From the NCBI GenBank assembly GCA_024278345.1, contig JAJRTK010000085.1, positions 1 to 26,855 on the forward strand: a stretch of DNA of 26,855 nucleotides, read 5' to 3'. The translations under genes were made by a program, and so were the position numbers. Position 1 is the stretch's first letter. Every line of letters begins with the position of its first letter. The notes beneath the pieces were generated by a model that saw nothing but the letters and a program-made list of their open reading frames with translations, was not told the origin of the DNA and ran no database searches. The DNA comes from a bacterium (lineage in GTDB: Bacteria; CSSED10-310; JAJRTK01). Below, piece by piece: positions 10,108 to 16,358 of the stretch.

Positions 10108-10114
10108 GGAGGGT
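10108..10114 (+). promoter_or_regulatory. Shine-Dalgarno that fixes the start at 10122
   Basis: GGAGGGT lies 7 nt before ATG 10122. Upstream in-frame ATGs at 10077 and 10101 lack a comparable site and would precede the natural start of the ribosome-binding fold. Confidence 0.75.
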
Positions 10115-10121
10115 CACCATC

Positions 10122-11153
10122 ATGAAAGTGGAAATCAAGTGGCGAAACCACGAGCCCCGAAAACAGATGGAGGCCGCGGTGAGTCGCCGTGCTGAAAGGC
10201 TGGAGCGGGTCGTGGGCTCTTTCAATCGCGGCAACACCACTCTGTTCGTCCAAATCGAGTATTTGCCCAAGCGGTACATCTACCAGATATCCGCGAGCCT
10301 CAAACTCGCGCACCAGCGTCTCTATGTCCGCGAGGAGGGCCACGAACCCTTGACCTCCATTGCAAAGACCTTGGACGAGCTGGCCCGCAAGGTGCGAAAA
10401 CTCAAGTCCAAGTTCCAGTCACGCCGGACAGAAACTCCTCATCTCGCCGACCATGCCTGGCCAGATGACTTTGGTGAACAAGCCGAAGAAGAACCTCCCG
10501 TTGCCATTCCAACCATTGGGCGCCAGCAACTTTCAAGGTTGGCTCGGATGATTCACCGCGAGCTGCGATATTATTCGGCGACTCACGACTTTGACGTGAC
10601 CCAGATCAGCCCTCAATCGATCCTTGATGAGACGATTGCGGCTGCTTTGCCCCAGATTGAAGAGCCCGGCGGGCCTTCCATCGAGAGCATCCTGCTACGG
10701 GAAGCCATGGCTGCCATTCATCGGCGGGTACAGGGGTTATTGGATGCCGTCGATAGAGACGACCAATCTACGGAGGCGTCCGTGCCTTCAGAAACCAAAA
10801 GGGATCAACTCAGTGCGGGGGGAGAGCGACATTTAGCCCCACTTTTGGAAGAAAACCTCCGGTTCGAAGATCTACTGCCTGTTGACGGCGCTACACCAGA
10901 GGAGATGGCCGCCACGTACGAAGCCGAAGAAAAGGTCGATGAGGTGCTCAGGGCCCTACCATCTCGGACGCGAAACGTCTTCATGCTTCACGTGATCGAG
11001 GGAATGAGCATGAACCAGGTCGCTCAAACGCTCAAGATCCAACTGGAATCGGCCGGGGAACACCTCACACACGCCCTCGACATGCTGCGGACAGATCCGG
11101 AGCTCCAGGAAATGTTGCCCAGGCTCAAGGATCCCGCGGCAGCTCTAAGCTGA
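10122..11153 (+). CDS. HPF/RaiA-like ribosome-hibernation domain fused to sigma-70-like regions
   Basis: A 343-residue cytoplasmic protein. Residues 1-100 match the S30AE/HPF fold: MKVEIKWRNHEP start, alternating strands (LFVQIEYLP, YIYQISASLKL), a second helix with TSIAKTLDELARKVRKLKSK and a basic end, as in factors that bind the 30S decoding region. A polar linker leads to ~137-205, with RLARMIHRELRYY and ISPQSILDETIAAAL, which resembles sigma region 2. Residues ~268-325 resemble sigma region 4: LRALPSRTRNVFMLHVIEG then MSMNQVAQTLKIQ, a helix-turn-helix, then a final helix. Ordinary long HPF proteins end in a dimerisation domain instead, so this is a fusion or a sigma-like regulator with an HPF front. 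DNA or RNA-polymerase binding is inference. An alternative explanation is a structural HTH without sigma activity. The gene is followed by a hairpin at 11179. Confidence 0.75.
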   Translation: MKVEIKWRNHEPRKQMEAAVSRRAERLERVVGSFNRGNTTLFVQIEYLPKRYIYQISASLKLAHQRLYVREEGHEPLTSIAKTLDELARKVRKLKSKFQSRRTETPHLADHAWPDDFGEQAEEEPPVAIPTIGRQQLSRLARMIHRELRYYSATHDFDVTQISPQSILDETIAAALPQIEEPGGPSIESILLREAMAAIHRRVQGLLDAVDRDDQSTEASVPSETKRDQLSAGGERHLAPLLEENLRFEDLLPVDGATPEEMAATYEAEEKVDEVLRALPSRTRNVFMLHVIEGMSMNQVAQTLKIQLESAGEHLTHALDMLRTDPELQEMLPRLKDPAAALS

Positions 11154-12531: not shown

Positions 12532-15500
12532 CTAATTGGCACGTAGCGTAATGGTCACGGCTTTGGGGGTCTGTTGAACATCGTATTCCGGGAACTTCCC
12601 CGACAGATCGACAACGATCCGTAGCTTCTTGGAATGGACTCCAAAGCGAACCTGCTTCACGCCGTGGGCACCGATCTTTTGCCTCTTGGGTTGAACGAGT
12701 GTCTTGGCGTTGAGGAGGTCGAGGACGAGGCGGTTGGGGTTCTTGAGCTCGGTTCGGAGCACTCGCTCCAGTTTGCGATCCGTGTCGATTCGAATGGTGA
12801 CTTGATCCGCGGAGGATACGACGCTGACACCGGAAAGCTTCACTGGACCCGCCATCACCTCTGGCGCCGCCGTTGGCGCCGGAGCCGGTGTCTTTTTGCC
12901 AGCGGGAGCTGGAGATTTTTTGGGAATGGCAGGTACCGCCAGCGAGGTTTTCCGGGTTGGTTTTGGACGGGGAGTGGGGTTGGGTCGGTGGGTGGGCTTC
13001 TTTGCCTCCACGCCTTCTCCCGGTTCCTCGACCATCTCATCCGTTGTGACCGCCGCCAGAAGCTCGTCAGGATTCAATGTTCCAGCTCCAGAATGCCCCT
13101 CCGTACTGGATGACGCTGGAGCCTGGGATCCTTGCTTTCCTTGATCTGGCCGCGACTCTTCTCCGGAGCCGCTGCCATCGGTTTGCGATGTCGCCAATCC
13201 GCCATCCGATGGTGACGCGGCTTCTCCGTCATCCGGGCTGCCATCCACTGGCTTTGGCCCAGGAGGTGGAGCCGTGATCTCGCCAAAGATCGCCGTCGAT
13301 AGATCGATCGCCCATCGGCCAGCGGGAGTGAAATAGAGGCCAACCACGCAGGCAATCAGGACGAAAATCCCCCCCACAACCCGCCGGCGCCTCTGTTTTC
13401 GGCGGCGCAGCACATAGGTGTTCAAGTCCGTGGACTCGTCCGTGTTCTCCTCTTCTCCCTTCGAGCGTGCCGCTTCCCTGCGCGAAACCCAGGGAAGGCG
13501 GTGTGCTTTCTCCTCTCCTGGTGCTGTCAGGCTGGCGAACTCCGAAACATCAGAGCCTAAGTTACCCTTAGCGACCGCCGGCGATTCGGAGGCCTCATCC
13601 CTTTTCCCAAGAGCGCCTGCACCCGTTGGCTGAGCGTCCAGGCTTTCCCACGTGAGTTTCGAAGGCGCGTCATCCGCGTCGGGGGGTGAGTCAGAACCGT
13701 CCGCCACCAGGCTTGGCGGTGTCGGAGTTGCCTCCATGTCGTCGGAAGATCCAGAAGCGCTCTCCTCCAACTCCTGCCTCGAAGCGGGGCCGCCTCCAAA
13801 GAATGGGTCCGAATCCAGGCGGTCCAGCATGGCGGTCGAGGCCTTGACTGTCGATTCTACGATGTTTTCCACGATGGCCGAATCCTCGAACGCGGGATCA
13901 GAATCCAGCCCGAATTCCCCAGAATCAAATTCGGCAAAGGCGCTTTCGTCGGCAGGAAGTGGCTCCGCATCAGAAAGCTCGGATGGTTTGGCGGCAGCCC
14001 ACTCTTGGCCGCCGCGAGAGGAATCACCTTCCAACTCCCCCGCTTCTTCAAACCGATGTTTATTGCCAAAAGCATCTTCCTGTTCCGCAGCCAGAGCCAG
14101 CCAATCAAGGGCCTTCGTCGTTTCCTGATCATCTGACTCTCGCACGCCTTCCGAACTCGTTTTCTTTTCCTTGTCCCCTTCCGCCAATTCCGGCTCGGGC
14201 AAGGGTGATCGATCAACCCCAGCTTCTTCCATGGCCTCTACGGAGCCGAACTTGAAGGAAGATTCCCACTCCGAAGGTGATAATCCATCTTGTAGAGACT
14301 CTTTTCCACCGCCTCCCAGCTGGAATTCAACTTCCTCGAAATCAGTGGAAAAACCGCCATCGTCTTGGTCAAGAGCATCTGTGGCAGGCTCGGACACACC
14401 TTCGTTGTCAGTTCCCGCCTCCGCCGCCTCCGGCCCATCGTCAAACACGAACTCCGTATCCGGTAGGAACTCATCCGAGGCGGCTGGCTCTGGTACCTGC
14501 ACACCTTCAAGACCTCCCATGGGGGTGTCTTCTTCGGAGTGCCTCAACTGCCGTCCAGCCTCAACCTCCAAGTTCGCCAGTTGAGCTAGGATCTTCGTGG
14601 TCTCCCATTCCTCGTCATCCTCAGCCTCTTGGAGCCAGGCAGGCACGGTGTCGAGGCTCTTCGCCAACGTGGAACCAGACCGCTCCGAAGCGCTCTTCTC
14701 TTCAGAACTGGGAGGCTGCGCATCATCTATCGGGAATCCGGCTTCCTCTTCTTTTTCGGAGGGTTCCCTCTTCTCCGACACCGACAACCGCGCCAGAGCG
14801 GAGTCGAAGGAAAGCTCTATCTCCGGTTCGTCATTTGTCGCGTCGAATTCAGGCGTTTCGTCCAGCCCCGGGCCAGCGTCTTCATCGGTGTCTTCAAAGT
14901 GGAAATCAAGCTCGTCGTTCACGTAAGTGTCGGTTTCCTCCCGGGGGCTTCCCACGTCGAACTCCACTGCTTCGTCGAGCTCGGTTACAGCTTCATCCTG
15001 AAGGCTTCCAAGATCGAATTCAGGTGCTTCTTCATCGAGCTGGCCATCGGTTTTCTCCAGTGATCTTTCACGGTCCAAGCCGAGACCTTCCCCTAAATCC
15101 CTCTGGAACTCACCTTCCGGGGCCTCGGCGGCTAGCCCATGGTCCTCAGCTTCCTGCTCGGCTTCTGCCTTCTTGTCGTCCATCGCTGTTGAGGGTATTT
15201 CTTTGCCCTTTTTGCGGCGTTTCAAGCCGGCTGCCGTGAGTCCGGTTTCCGAAAGCCAGTCCAGTGCCTTTTGTGTCGAGTCTTTCTGTGGTCGGCTCCG
15301 CTTGGAGTTCGGCCCTTTGACCGGGCTTTGTAAGCTGGAGTCTGGAGCTTGAGCATCCTGGTTATCTTGGGGATGGGCCTCGGGCGGAACCGGCAACCGT
15401 GATTCCGATAGGCTCATAAGGGTTTGGAGTGCTCCCGGATCAAGGAACTGTATGGCAGCCTCCAGCCGATCCGGTGATCTTCGGTGGCGATAGACCTGCC

Positions 15501-15711
15501 CGGGAACCATGACAGGAACATTACAATCCCCGAAATGAAATTCGATCTCCACCGGAGTGCCTACGGGCAATTTCGTTTCCATCTTCAGCAGGATTTCTCC
15601 CCGACGAAGTTGCCGGGAGAACATCGCGAAGAACATGGCTCGGTCTGGGCACTCGAAACGAACGATGGTCCGAACTGAGATCGTCGGCTTCTGAAATACG
15701 GAATCAGCCAT
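12532..15711 (-). CDS. PilZ-like / acidic linker / transmembrane / AMIN-domain protein
   Basis: A 1059-residue single-pass protein. Start 15711 is chosen because GGAAAG lies eight nt upstream and the sequence turns domain-like there; the frame opens at 15795. Residues ~10-110 look like a PilZ-type beta barrel (RRGEILLKMETKLPVGTPV, VPGQVYRHRR, AAIQFLD); the strict RxxxR and DxSxxG c-di-GMP motifs are not clear. Residues ~115-770 are a very acidic, Ser/Glu/Asp-rich, probably disordered region with short repeats such as EFDLGS, EFDVGS and EFDATN. A basic patch (RRRKQRRRR) precedes the transmembrane helix (~777-794). A Pro/Lys/Ser-rich periplasmic stretch then leads to a C-terminal AMIN domain (~954-1059: VTIRIDTDRKLERV, NRLVLDLLNAK, VRFGVHSKKLRIVVDLSG). 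AMIN domains target peptidoglycan enzymes or secretins. The layout recalls FimV-like polar scaffolds; function is inference. Confidence 0.8.
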   Translation of the reverse strand: MADSVFQKPTISVRTIVRFECPDRAMFFAMFSRQLRRGEILLKMETKLPVGTPVEIEFHFGDCNVPVMVPGQVYRHRRSPDRLEAAIQFLDPGALQTLMSLSESRLPVPPEAHPQDNQDAQAPDSSLQSPVKGPNSKRSRPQKDSTQKALDWLSETGLTAAGLKRRKKGKEIPSTAMDDKKAEAEQEAEDHGLAAEAPEGEFQRDLGEGLGLDRERSLEKTDGQLDEEAPEFDLGSLQDEAVTELDEAVEFDVGSPREETDTYVNDELDFHFEDTDEDAGPGLDETPEFDATNDEPEIELSFDSALARLSVSEKREPSEKEEEAGFPIDDAQPPSSEEKSASERSGSTLAKSLDTVPAWLQEAEDDEEWETTKILAQLANLEVEAGRQLRHSEEDTPMGGLEGVQVPEPAASDEFLPDTEFVFDDGPEAAEAGTDNEGVSEPATDALDQDDGGFSTDFEEVEFQLGGGGKESLQDGLSPSEWESSFKFGSVEAMEEAGVDRSPLPEPELAEGDKEKKTSSEGVRESDDQETTKALDWLALAAEQEDAFGNKHRFEEAGELEGDSSRGGQEWAAAKPSELSDAEPLPADESAFAEFDSGEFGLDSDPAFEDSAIVENIVESTVKASTAMLDRLDSDPFFGGGPASRQELEESASGSSDDMEATPTPPSLVADGSDSPPDADDAPSKLTWESLDAQPTGAGALGKRDEASESPAVAKGNLGSDVSEFASLTAPGEEKAHRLPWVSRREAARSKGEEENTDESTDLNTYVLRRRKQRRRRVVGGIFVLIACVVGLYFTPAGRWAIDLSTAIFGEITAPPPGPKPVDGSPDDGEAASPSDGGLATSQTDGSGSGEESRPDQGKQGSQAPASSSTEGHSGAGTLNPDELLAAVTTDEMVEEPGEGVEAKKPTHRPNPTPRPKPTRKTSLAVPAIPKKSPAPAGKKTPAPAPTAAPEVMAGPVKLSGVSVVSSADQVTIRIDTDRKLERVLRTELKNPNRLVLDLLNAKTLVQPKRQKIGAHGVKQVRFGVHSKKLRIVVDLSGKFPEYDVQQTPKAVTITLRAN

Positions 15712-16358
15712 GTCTGTTGCTTTCCGCGAATCTGAACGGGCACGGGGCGATTGTGATGACCGTCTTTCGGCTTCTTCCAAGTATCGCCGGCACATACTCG
15801 TTCAAGGAATGAACCTATTGTTCGCCACAGGCCTTACGGGCGCGGGACGACGACGTTTTGTGCTGTCACACACCATCTAAACCATACCATAGTTGAGACG
15901 GCAAGGGACAGCCAACCGTAACAAAACCCTAGATCCGTTCGTGCGATCCCGATTGCCATTCGCTACATATACGGCAGCCACGGCTGTCCCACCGTGCATG
16001 CAAGCAGAAAACTAGCGCTGCGGCTTTGACAGGAAGTCCTCGCGGGACGTAGGGGTTATTGAGTTGTGTCGGGGAAGCCAACTCCCCGGTACTCCCGAAC
16101 CATTCAGCATCCCCTAAATCCGGAAATCTCATCCAGGACTTGCCGGGGCATCTTATCCAATCATCTCCACCGCCTTTTTCGGCGGGCAGTTTGGACCTCA
16201 AGACTTGGCCCCATTTTCAGGCAGTTACCCATCACTAGAATCAGCCCTGGATCGTTCACCGCTGGTCATGGCAAGATAAGTGCGGCCGTGGGCGCGACAG
16301 ATCAGCTAGCGCCCTTTGGGGTGGTGAAAGGATCGGGATTGAGGACTGGAGAAAAACC
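15712..16358. other. Long intergenic region between divergent genes
   Basis: 647 bp between the PilZ-AMIN start and the unknown gene at 16359. Visible structures: a 6-bp stem CGGGGA/TCCCCG at 16070-16088; CCGCC/GGCGG with a T-rich loop at 16170-16185; GTCC/GGAC at about 16037-16049; and a near-palindromic AGCC/GGCT at about 15976-15985. A TTGACA at 16026-16031 (+) has no fitting -10. On the minus strand an ACTATGGTATGG stretch near 15880-15895 is the most promoter-like DNA. A 90-codon minus frame at 15929-16201 has no domain or good ribosome site. No RNA family could be called with confidence. Confidence 0.4.

Follow-up and report, generated by a model that had tools for sequence, protein, structure and literature searches.

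A widespread bacterial protein family joining an S30AE domain to a sigma-factor-like half

The window, i.e., the whole 26,855-nucleotide stretch of DNA analyzed here, encodes a protein in which an S30AE domain of the ribosome-hibernation type is joined to a C-terminal half resembling a sigma factor (Table 1). This fusion is real, and it is not an isolated one: it belongs to a widespread and previously unrecognized protein family, and we regard the fusion, its fold and the family, taken together, as close to certain. As judged from sequence and structure models, the protein is of the hibernation type (S30AE), and its C-terminal half is an ECF sigma factor that has decayed. The best reading of its function, which we offer tentatively, is that of a stress-island ribosome-hibernation factor that would carry a sigma decoy for an anti-sigma-type partner.

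Table 1. Features of the fusion gene and its product in the window
Feature	Position	Strand	Evidence
S30AE-sigma-like fusion gene, 343 aa	10122..11153	+	open frame; found by a profile built without it, E 7e-47
Shine-Dalgarno-like GGAGGG, 8 nt 5' of the ATG at 10122	10108..10113	+	read directly
S30AE/HPF domain, residues 1-104	10122..10433	+	PF02482 above cut-off; structure match to HPF/RaiA
Disordered linker, residues 105-127	10434..10502	+	pLDDT <50 at 104-129
Sigma region-2-like helical domain, residues ~128-216	10503..10769	+	model superposition on ECF sigmas; family segment profile E 3e-9
Asp169, at the position of the region 2.2 glutamine	10626..10628	+	Asp in 18/18 fusions, Gln in 25/25 ECF sigmas
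Degenerate copy of the family motif F[YW]QPDExLRLEDLVP, here HLAPLLEENLRFEDLLP, residues 237-253	10830..10880	+	family alignments
Sigma region-4-like domain, residues 259-324, recognition helix acidic, not basic	10896..11093	+	PF08281 above cut-off

Architecture and distribution of the family

A preliminary description of the gene had proposed an S30AE/HPF-type N-terminus, followed by segments resembling sigma regions 2 and 4 in place of the dimerization domain of long HPFs, and this architecture is borne out in each of its parts. Residues 3–97, taken as an isolated segment, match the Pfam S30AE model (PF02482) with E 2.5e-7 and residues 270–319 match Sigma70_r4_2 (PF08281) with E 4.6e-7, both above cut-off, and a search up to E 10 recovers no Pfam match to the long-HPF C-terminal dimerization domain in the window protein. 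NCBIfam models for ECF sigma factors and yfiA also match, all of them under their cut-offs. Residues 137–205 alone give no Pfam match in the window protein; their likeness to region 2 emerges instead from superposition on ECF sigma factors and from the family profile.

The AlphaFold2 model of the window protein (mean pLDDT 71.6) has three ordered blocks, residues 1–104, 134–216 and 259–324. When such models were compared with structures using Foldseek and VIA-align, HPF/RaiA structures led the matches to the first block, the best being 8rd8_D (Z 15.8, 1.4 Å over 99 residues), and residues 126–330 aligned as one unit to the ECF sigma factor RpoE (5uxx; Z 14.4, 3.1 Å over 153 residues), with residues 123–331 aligning to SigW (Z 12.3). 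The sigma structures matched by the second and third blocks are those of ECF sigma/anti-sigma complexes, namely RpoE-NepR and SigW-RsiW. A relative from the Acidobacteria (L055) gives a better model (pLDDT 80.2), with Z scores of 17.3 and 14.9 against RpoE and SigW, and this model also superposes on PhyR (4qic, Z 13.6). At the sequence level, positions 129–334 of the family profile align to positions 41–236 of SigG1. Structure models and relatives together indicate that the middle domain is a sigma region 2, too diverged in the window copy for Pfam.

A profile built from relatives only, with the window protein and its phylum-mate left out, recovers the former at E 7e-47 overall. The three segments, whose separate searching the preliminary description had suggested, score 4e-17 (S30AE), 3e-9 (region 2) and 6e-14 (region 4), and the best of the shuffled decoys reaches only 0.7 against the same profile. 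The taxonomic survey also suggested there shows the family to be widespread across many bacterial lineages. Its first full-length relatives, from a whole-genome search, came from the same phylum (G003) and from an unrelated phylum (G051); a profile search of 386 genomes found the family in nine, and a scan of named genomes found it in MAGs labeled Acidobacteria, Blastocatellia, Nitrospirae, Tectomicrobia, Calditrichota, Sedimenticola, Chromatiales, Gammaproteobacteria, Myxococcales and Nitrospinota. Among 18 members, Pfam recognizes S30AE in 18, Sigma70_r4_2 in 17, PhyR_sigma-like (PF22233) in 12, Sigma70_ECF in four and Sigma70_r2 in two. Many independent assemblies, some of them complete plasmids and one, from the Calditrichota scan, a single-contig 5.0-Mb genome, carry the fusion in a single unbroken frame, so that it is neither a product of chance nor of misassembly; both are further rejected by the dN/dS values of 0.10–0.17 between close pairs of members, which indicate strong purifying selection. 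Within the Calditrichota 7 of 40 genomes match, and one of the seven copies is broken: at G081:C95:32168-32575 (L077) only the S30AE half is found, followed by stop codons, possibly representing a decaying copy.

Trees built for each of the two halves together with comparators, which are quick trees with some long branches, place the fusions on one side of a branch with support of 98 and 100, and the family appears to have had a single origin. The S30AE halves of the fusions group apart from 29 other HPFs. An ordinary HPF is also present in most of the family genomes searched, G051 being one in which the search turned up the fusion alone. A search of the main texts of open-licence papers found no paper describing an S30AE-sigma or HPF-sigma fusion. 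A separate HPF gene directly preceded, on the same strand, by a sigma region-4 match (G024:C1:109396-109974) could illustrate how the fusion originated. Sigma region-4 matches also occur on G046:C157, G046:C63, G323:C25 and G322:C56, where the open frames that contain them are very long (600 to 1035 aa).

Residues kept and lost in the two halves

The residues of region 2.2, region 2.4 and the recognition helix have established roles in the binding of core polymerase and promoter DNA by sigma factors. When the 18 fusions were aligned with 25 ordinary ECF sigma factors, picked via their similarity to the family sigma4, the region 2.2 glutamine present in every ECF sigma factor was seen to be replaced by aspartate in all the fusions, and the region 2.2 phenylalanine (24/25 ECF sigma factors) by valine, isoleucine or leucine (18/18 fusions); the region 2.4 asparagine is likewise found in 25/25 ECF sigma factors and in 0/18 fusions. 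From ECF sigma factors to fusions the median charge of the basic patch after region 2.4 drops from +4 to -0.5, that of region 4 from +3 to -1.5 and that of the recognition helix from +4 to 0 (p 3e-7, indicative only, as the rows compared are related); in the window protein the recognition helix has a net charge of -3, as against +2 to +6 in the ECF sigma factors. Alignments and models thus show a two-domain sigma fold that is kept and residues for core binding and for -10 and -35 recognition that are lost. Because these core-binding and DNA-binding residues are lost across the family, a role as a promoter-reading sigma factor is unlikely; judging from sequence, sigma activity has likely been lost in the family, and the sigma half is best taken as a probable sigma mimic. 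Of the features new to the family, the linker motif F[YW]QPDExLRLEDLVP is the most constant; the window copy keeps only its second half, the QPD part being missing.

In the S30AE half the charge is +5 in the fusions against +4 in HPFs (p 0.23; related rows, hence indicative only), and among the basic positions K95 is kept in 17/18 and R89 in 15/18 fusions, so that the alignment shows the basic C-terminal helix of the fold to be largely retained. Asp81, present in 28/29 HPFs, is replaced in the fusions; Lys86, present in 27/29, is mostly Glu or Ala, and Tyr77, another HPF signature residue, is also lost. Ribosome binding by the fusion is a plausible prediction, and it is not assured because several S30AE signature residues (Asp81, Lys86) are lost. 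The window genome has a second S30AE gene (L001 1270-2079, contig C123), by eye apparently of the canonical HPF type with a cold-shock-like C-terminal stretch, which adjoins an Hsp20-like gene.

With respect to known systems, the family shares the N-terminal fold, overall charge and basic C-terminal helix with HPF/RaiA/YfiA, and differs from them in having a sigma-like half in place of the long-HPF C-terminal domain and several changed signature residues. With the ECF sigma-70 factors it has in common the sigma2 and sigma4 folds in that order and, in four lineages though not at the window, an anti-sigma-type gene downstream; it is set apart by the lost core- and DNA-binding residues, an insert of ~10 residues in sigma2, the FYQPDExLRLEDLVP linker and the N-terminal S30AE domain. 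A known precedent for a sigma fold serving as bait for an anti-sigma factor is PhyR, the anti-anti-sigma factor that binds NepR: like the fusion, it has a sigma-like fold without the residues for sigma activity, those for DNA binding being lost. PhyR, however, has a receiver domain and NepR as its partner, whereas the fusion has S30AE and a candidate partner of the zf-HC2 type; Pfam finds no receiver domain among the family members.

Gene neighborhoods and possible functions

Anti-sigma factors commonly contain the zinc domain zf-HC2. In four lineages (L054/L027, L055/L056, L057 and L059) the fusion is followed directly downstream, on the same strand, by a short gene encoding a C...HxxxCxxC motif, the background of this motif being 0.5% of 420-bp windows of the family loci. 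The Pfam zf-HC2 model matches this downstream gene above cut-off in L054 and L059, just under it in L055 (22.0 vs 22.2) and more weakly in L056; that of L057 has the motif only, with no zf-HC2 match in Pfam. The C-terminal tails of the L058 and L066 fusions align to the C-terminus of the zf-HC2 partner (shuffle p <0.001 vs L054 and L055), and they resemble that partner C-terminus without the zinc finger; this likeness may be a hint, of the Rosetta-stone kind, at contact between fusion and partner. A like derivation of the L060, L062 and L065 tails was unsupported by tail alignment. No adjacent zf-HC2 gene is seen at the Calditrichota loci L063, L067 and L031, in the proteobacterial islands of the locus of heat resistance (LHR/tLST; see below), or beside either the window gene or L023 from the same phylum; therefore, a fixed adjacent partner is not general.

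Across the family, the context includes FtsH, GroEL, Hsp20 and ClpK, e.g., FtsH upstream in L055, GroES-GroEL upstream in L054 and Hsp20 genes downstream in L066. A ClpP-like SDH-type serine protease gene recurs near the fusion in L055, L056, L058 and L068 (PF01972 in L068), sometimes with a rhomboid protease. A baeRF (Balon-type) gene lies close by in six family loci. Balon genes have been described in stress operons that also contain genes for RaiA, Hsp20 and alternative sigma-70 factors, and the searched passages of that paper contain no S30AE-sigma fusion (PMC10901736). The window gene itself is flanked by genes for a VWA protein and an N-acetylmuramoyl-L-alanine amidase, and its other neighbors include genes for an AMIN-domain protein and a class I tRNA synthetase; the Balon/baeRF, chaperone, FtsH or ClpK genes seen beside other members are missing there, its location is not a heat-resistance island, no family-10 baeRF was found in its genome, and a defence-system library gave weak matches only. 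Adjoining the amidase gene, positions 12532-15795 of the window encode a protein of 1087 aa that contains an extended acidic region of low complexity and has its AMIN domain at the C-terminus.

In the reading that we tentatively favor, the S30AE domain would bind idle ribosomes under stress by their 30S subunit, and a zf-HC2 (ZAS-type) anti-sigma protein would be drawn to the sigma half as to a decoy, in the way that NepR is drawn to PhyR. Whether the fusion is on or off the ribosome would then decide whether it holds the anti-sigma partner, freeing a true sigma factor elsewhere, and ribosome hibernation and a stress regulon would thereby be coupled. There being no adjacent anti-sigma gene, the partner would need to be encoded elsewhere in the window organism, whose genome has four zf-HC2 matches at other places. 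In favor of this reading are the PhyR-like sigma half, the zf-HC2 gene of four lineages, the partner-like tails of L058 and L066, and the Balon, chaperone and protease neighbors; against it are the loci with no adjacent zf-HC2 gene, the QPD part missing from the window protein and the lost S30AE signature residues, and the zf-HC2 protein could act on another sigma factor. If true, the decoy reading would tie ribosome hibernation to sigma-factor control through a single protein, joining two branches of the bacterial stress response that are generally considered separately. Ranking close behind is a reading under which the protein is a hibernation factor whose sigma-derived half is a scaffold with no transcription role, which might bind Balon, another ribosome partner or the polymerase on the ribosome, or join two ribosomes in the manner of the long-HPF C-terminal domain. 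The loss of sigma function residues, the frequent Balon/baeRF neighbor and the proteobacterial islands annotated without an adjacent anti-sigma gene are all in keeping with such a scaffold, for which the constant linker motif could be a putative binding site. This leaves us seeing it as a serious if lesser possibility, since it explains neither the zf-HC2 gene directly downstream in four lineages nor the retention of the whole sigma2-sigma4 fold.

The same gene order, a classical sigma-then-anti-sigma arrangement, together with complete sigma2 and sigma4 folds and the database labeling of some members as sigma-70 factors, might be taken to favor a functional ECF-type sigma factor that is kept on the ribosome or bound by an anti-sigma factor and turns on stress genes upon release. 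This is nearest to the preliminary suggestion that the protein could link ribosome state to transcription; it is improbable, as the family lacks the core-binding glutamine, the region 2.4 asparagine and the basic recognition helix, each of which is found in all or nearly all of the ECF comparators, the window helix being outright acidic. What survives of that suggestion is the link itself, in another form, by way of a sigma mimic with an anti-sigma-type partner gene in four lineages. Least probable is that the S30AE half is no longer on ribosomes and that both halves are interaction modules of a proteostasis-island protein, working with ClpK, FtsH or Hsp20: the recurrent chaperone and protease neighbors and the loss of Asp81, Lys86 and Tyr77 would fit, but the HPF-like charge, the conserved basic C-terminal helix and the Balon neighbor speak against it.

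Orf11 of the heat-resistance islands

A tblastn search of plasmids with the L055 protein returned 272 records, mostly from Klebsiella, Enterobacter, Acinetobacter and Escherichia, and in the records examined (E. coli AW1.7, Klebsiella and Acinetobacter) the match is the LHR gene annotated "hypothetical protein" that is flanked by hdeD-GI and trx-GI. Pfam gives no match at E 1 for this Orf11 of E. coli AW1.7, and its identity therefore rests on the family profile, which matches LHR Orf11 with E 2e-49 to 3e-51, each of the three segments also matching separately. By this evidence from sequence, and with a tblastn cover of 87%, Orf11 of LHR1/tLST1 of E. coli is a full-length family member. It has the same region 2.2 aspartate as the window protein, and differs from it in lying in a heat-resistance island, in the hdeD-trx interval, the window gene being outside such an island. 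In Shinella the gene order is Hsp20s, FtsH, AAA ATPase, fusion, HdeD, rhomboid, Clp-type protease, thioredoxin and antiporter, and in L068 it is baeRF, rhomboid-like (named by eye), SDH-type protease and fusion; these parallel orders suggest an old association.

Orf11, so far of unknown function in a transmissible stress-tolerance locus, thus gains a domain identity, which brings the question within reach of ordinary E. coli genetics; it is also present on many Klebsiella, Enterobacter and Acinetobacter plasmids. It would also be the best-placed copy for a bolder and more doubtful form of the decoy reading, under which the family would be an undescribed kind of signaling protein on hibernating ribosomes, ancient and spread by stress islands, whose sigma decoy holds an anti-sigma factor, so that a stress sigma factor would be set free directly when ribosomes fall idle. 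Among complete E. coli genomes, the AW1.7 gene is matched in 152 of 5426 (2.8%).
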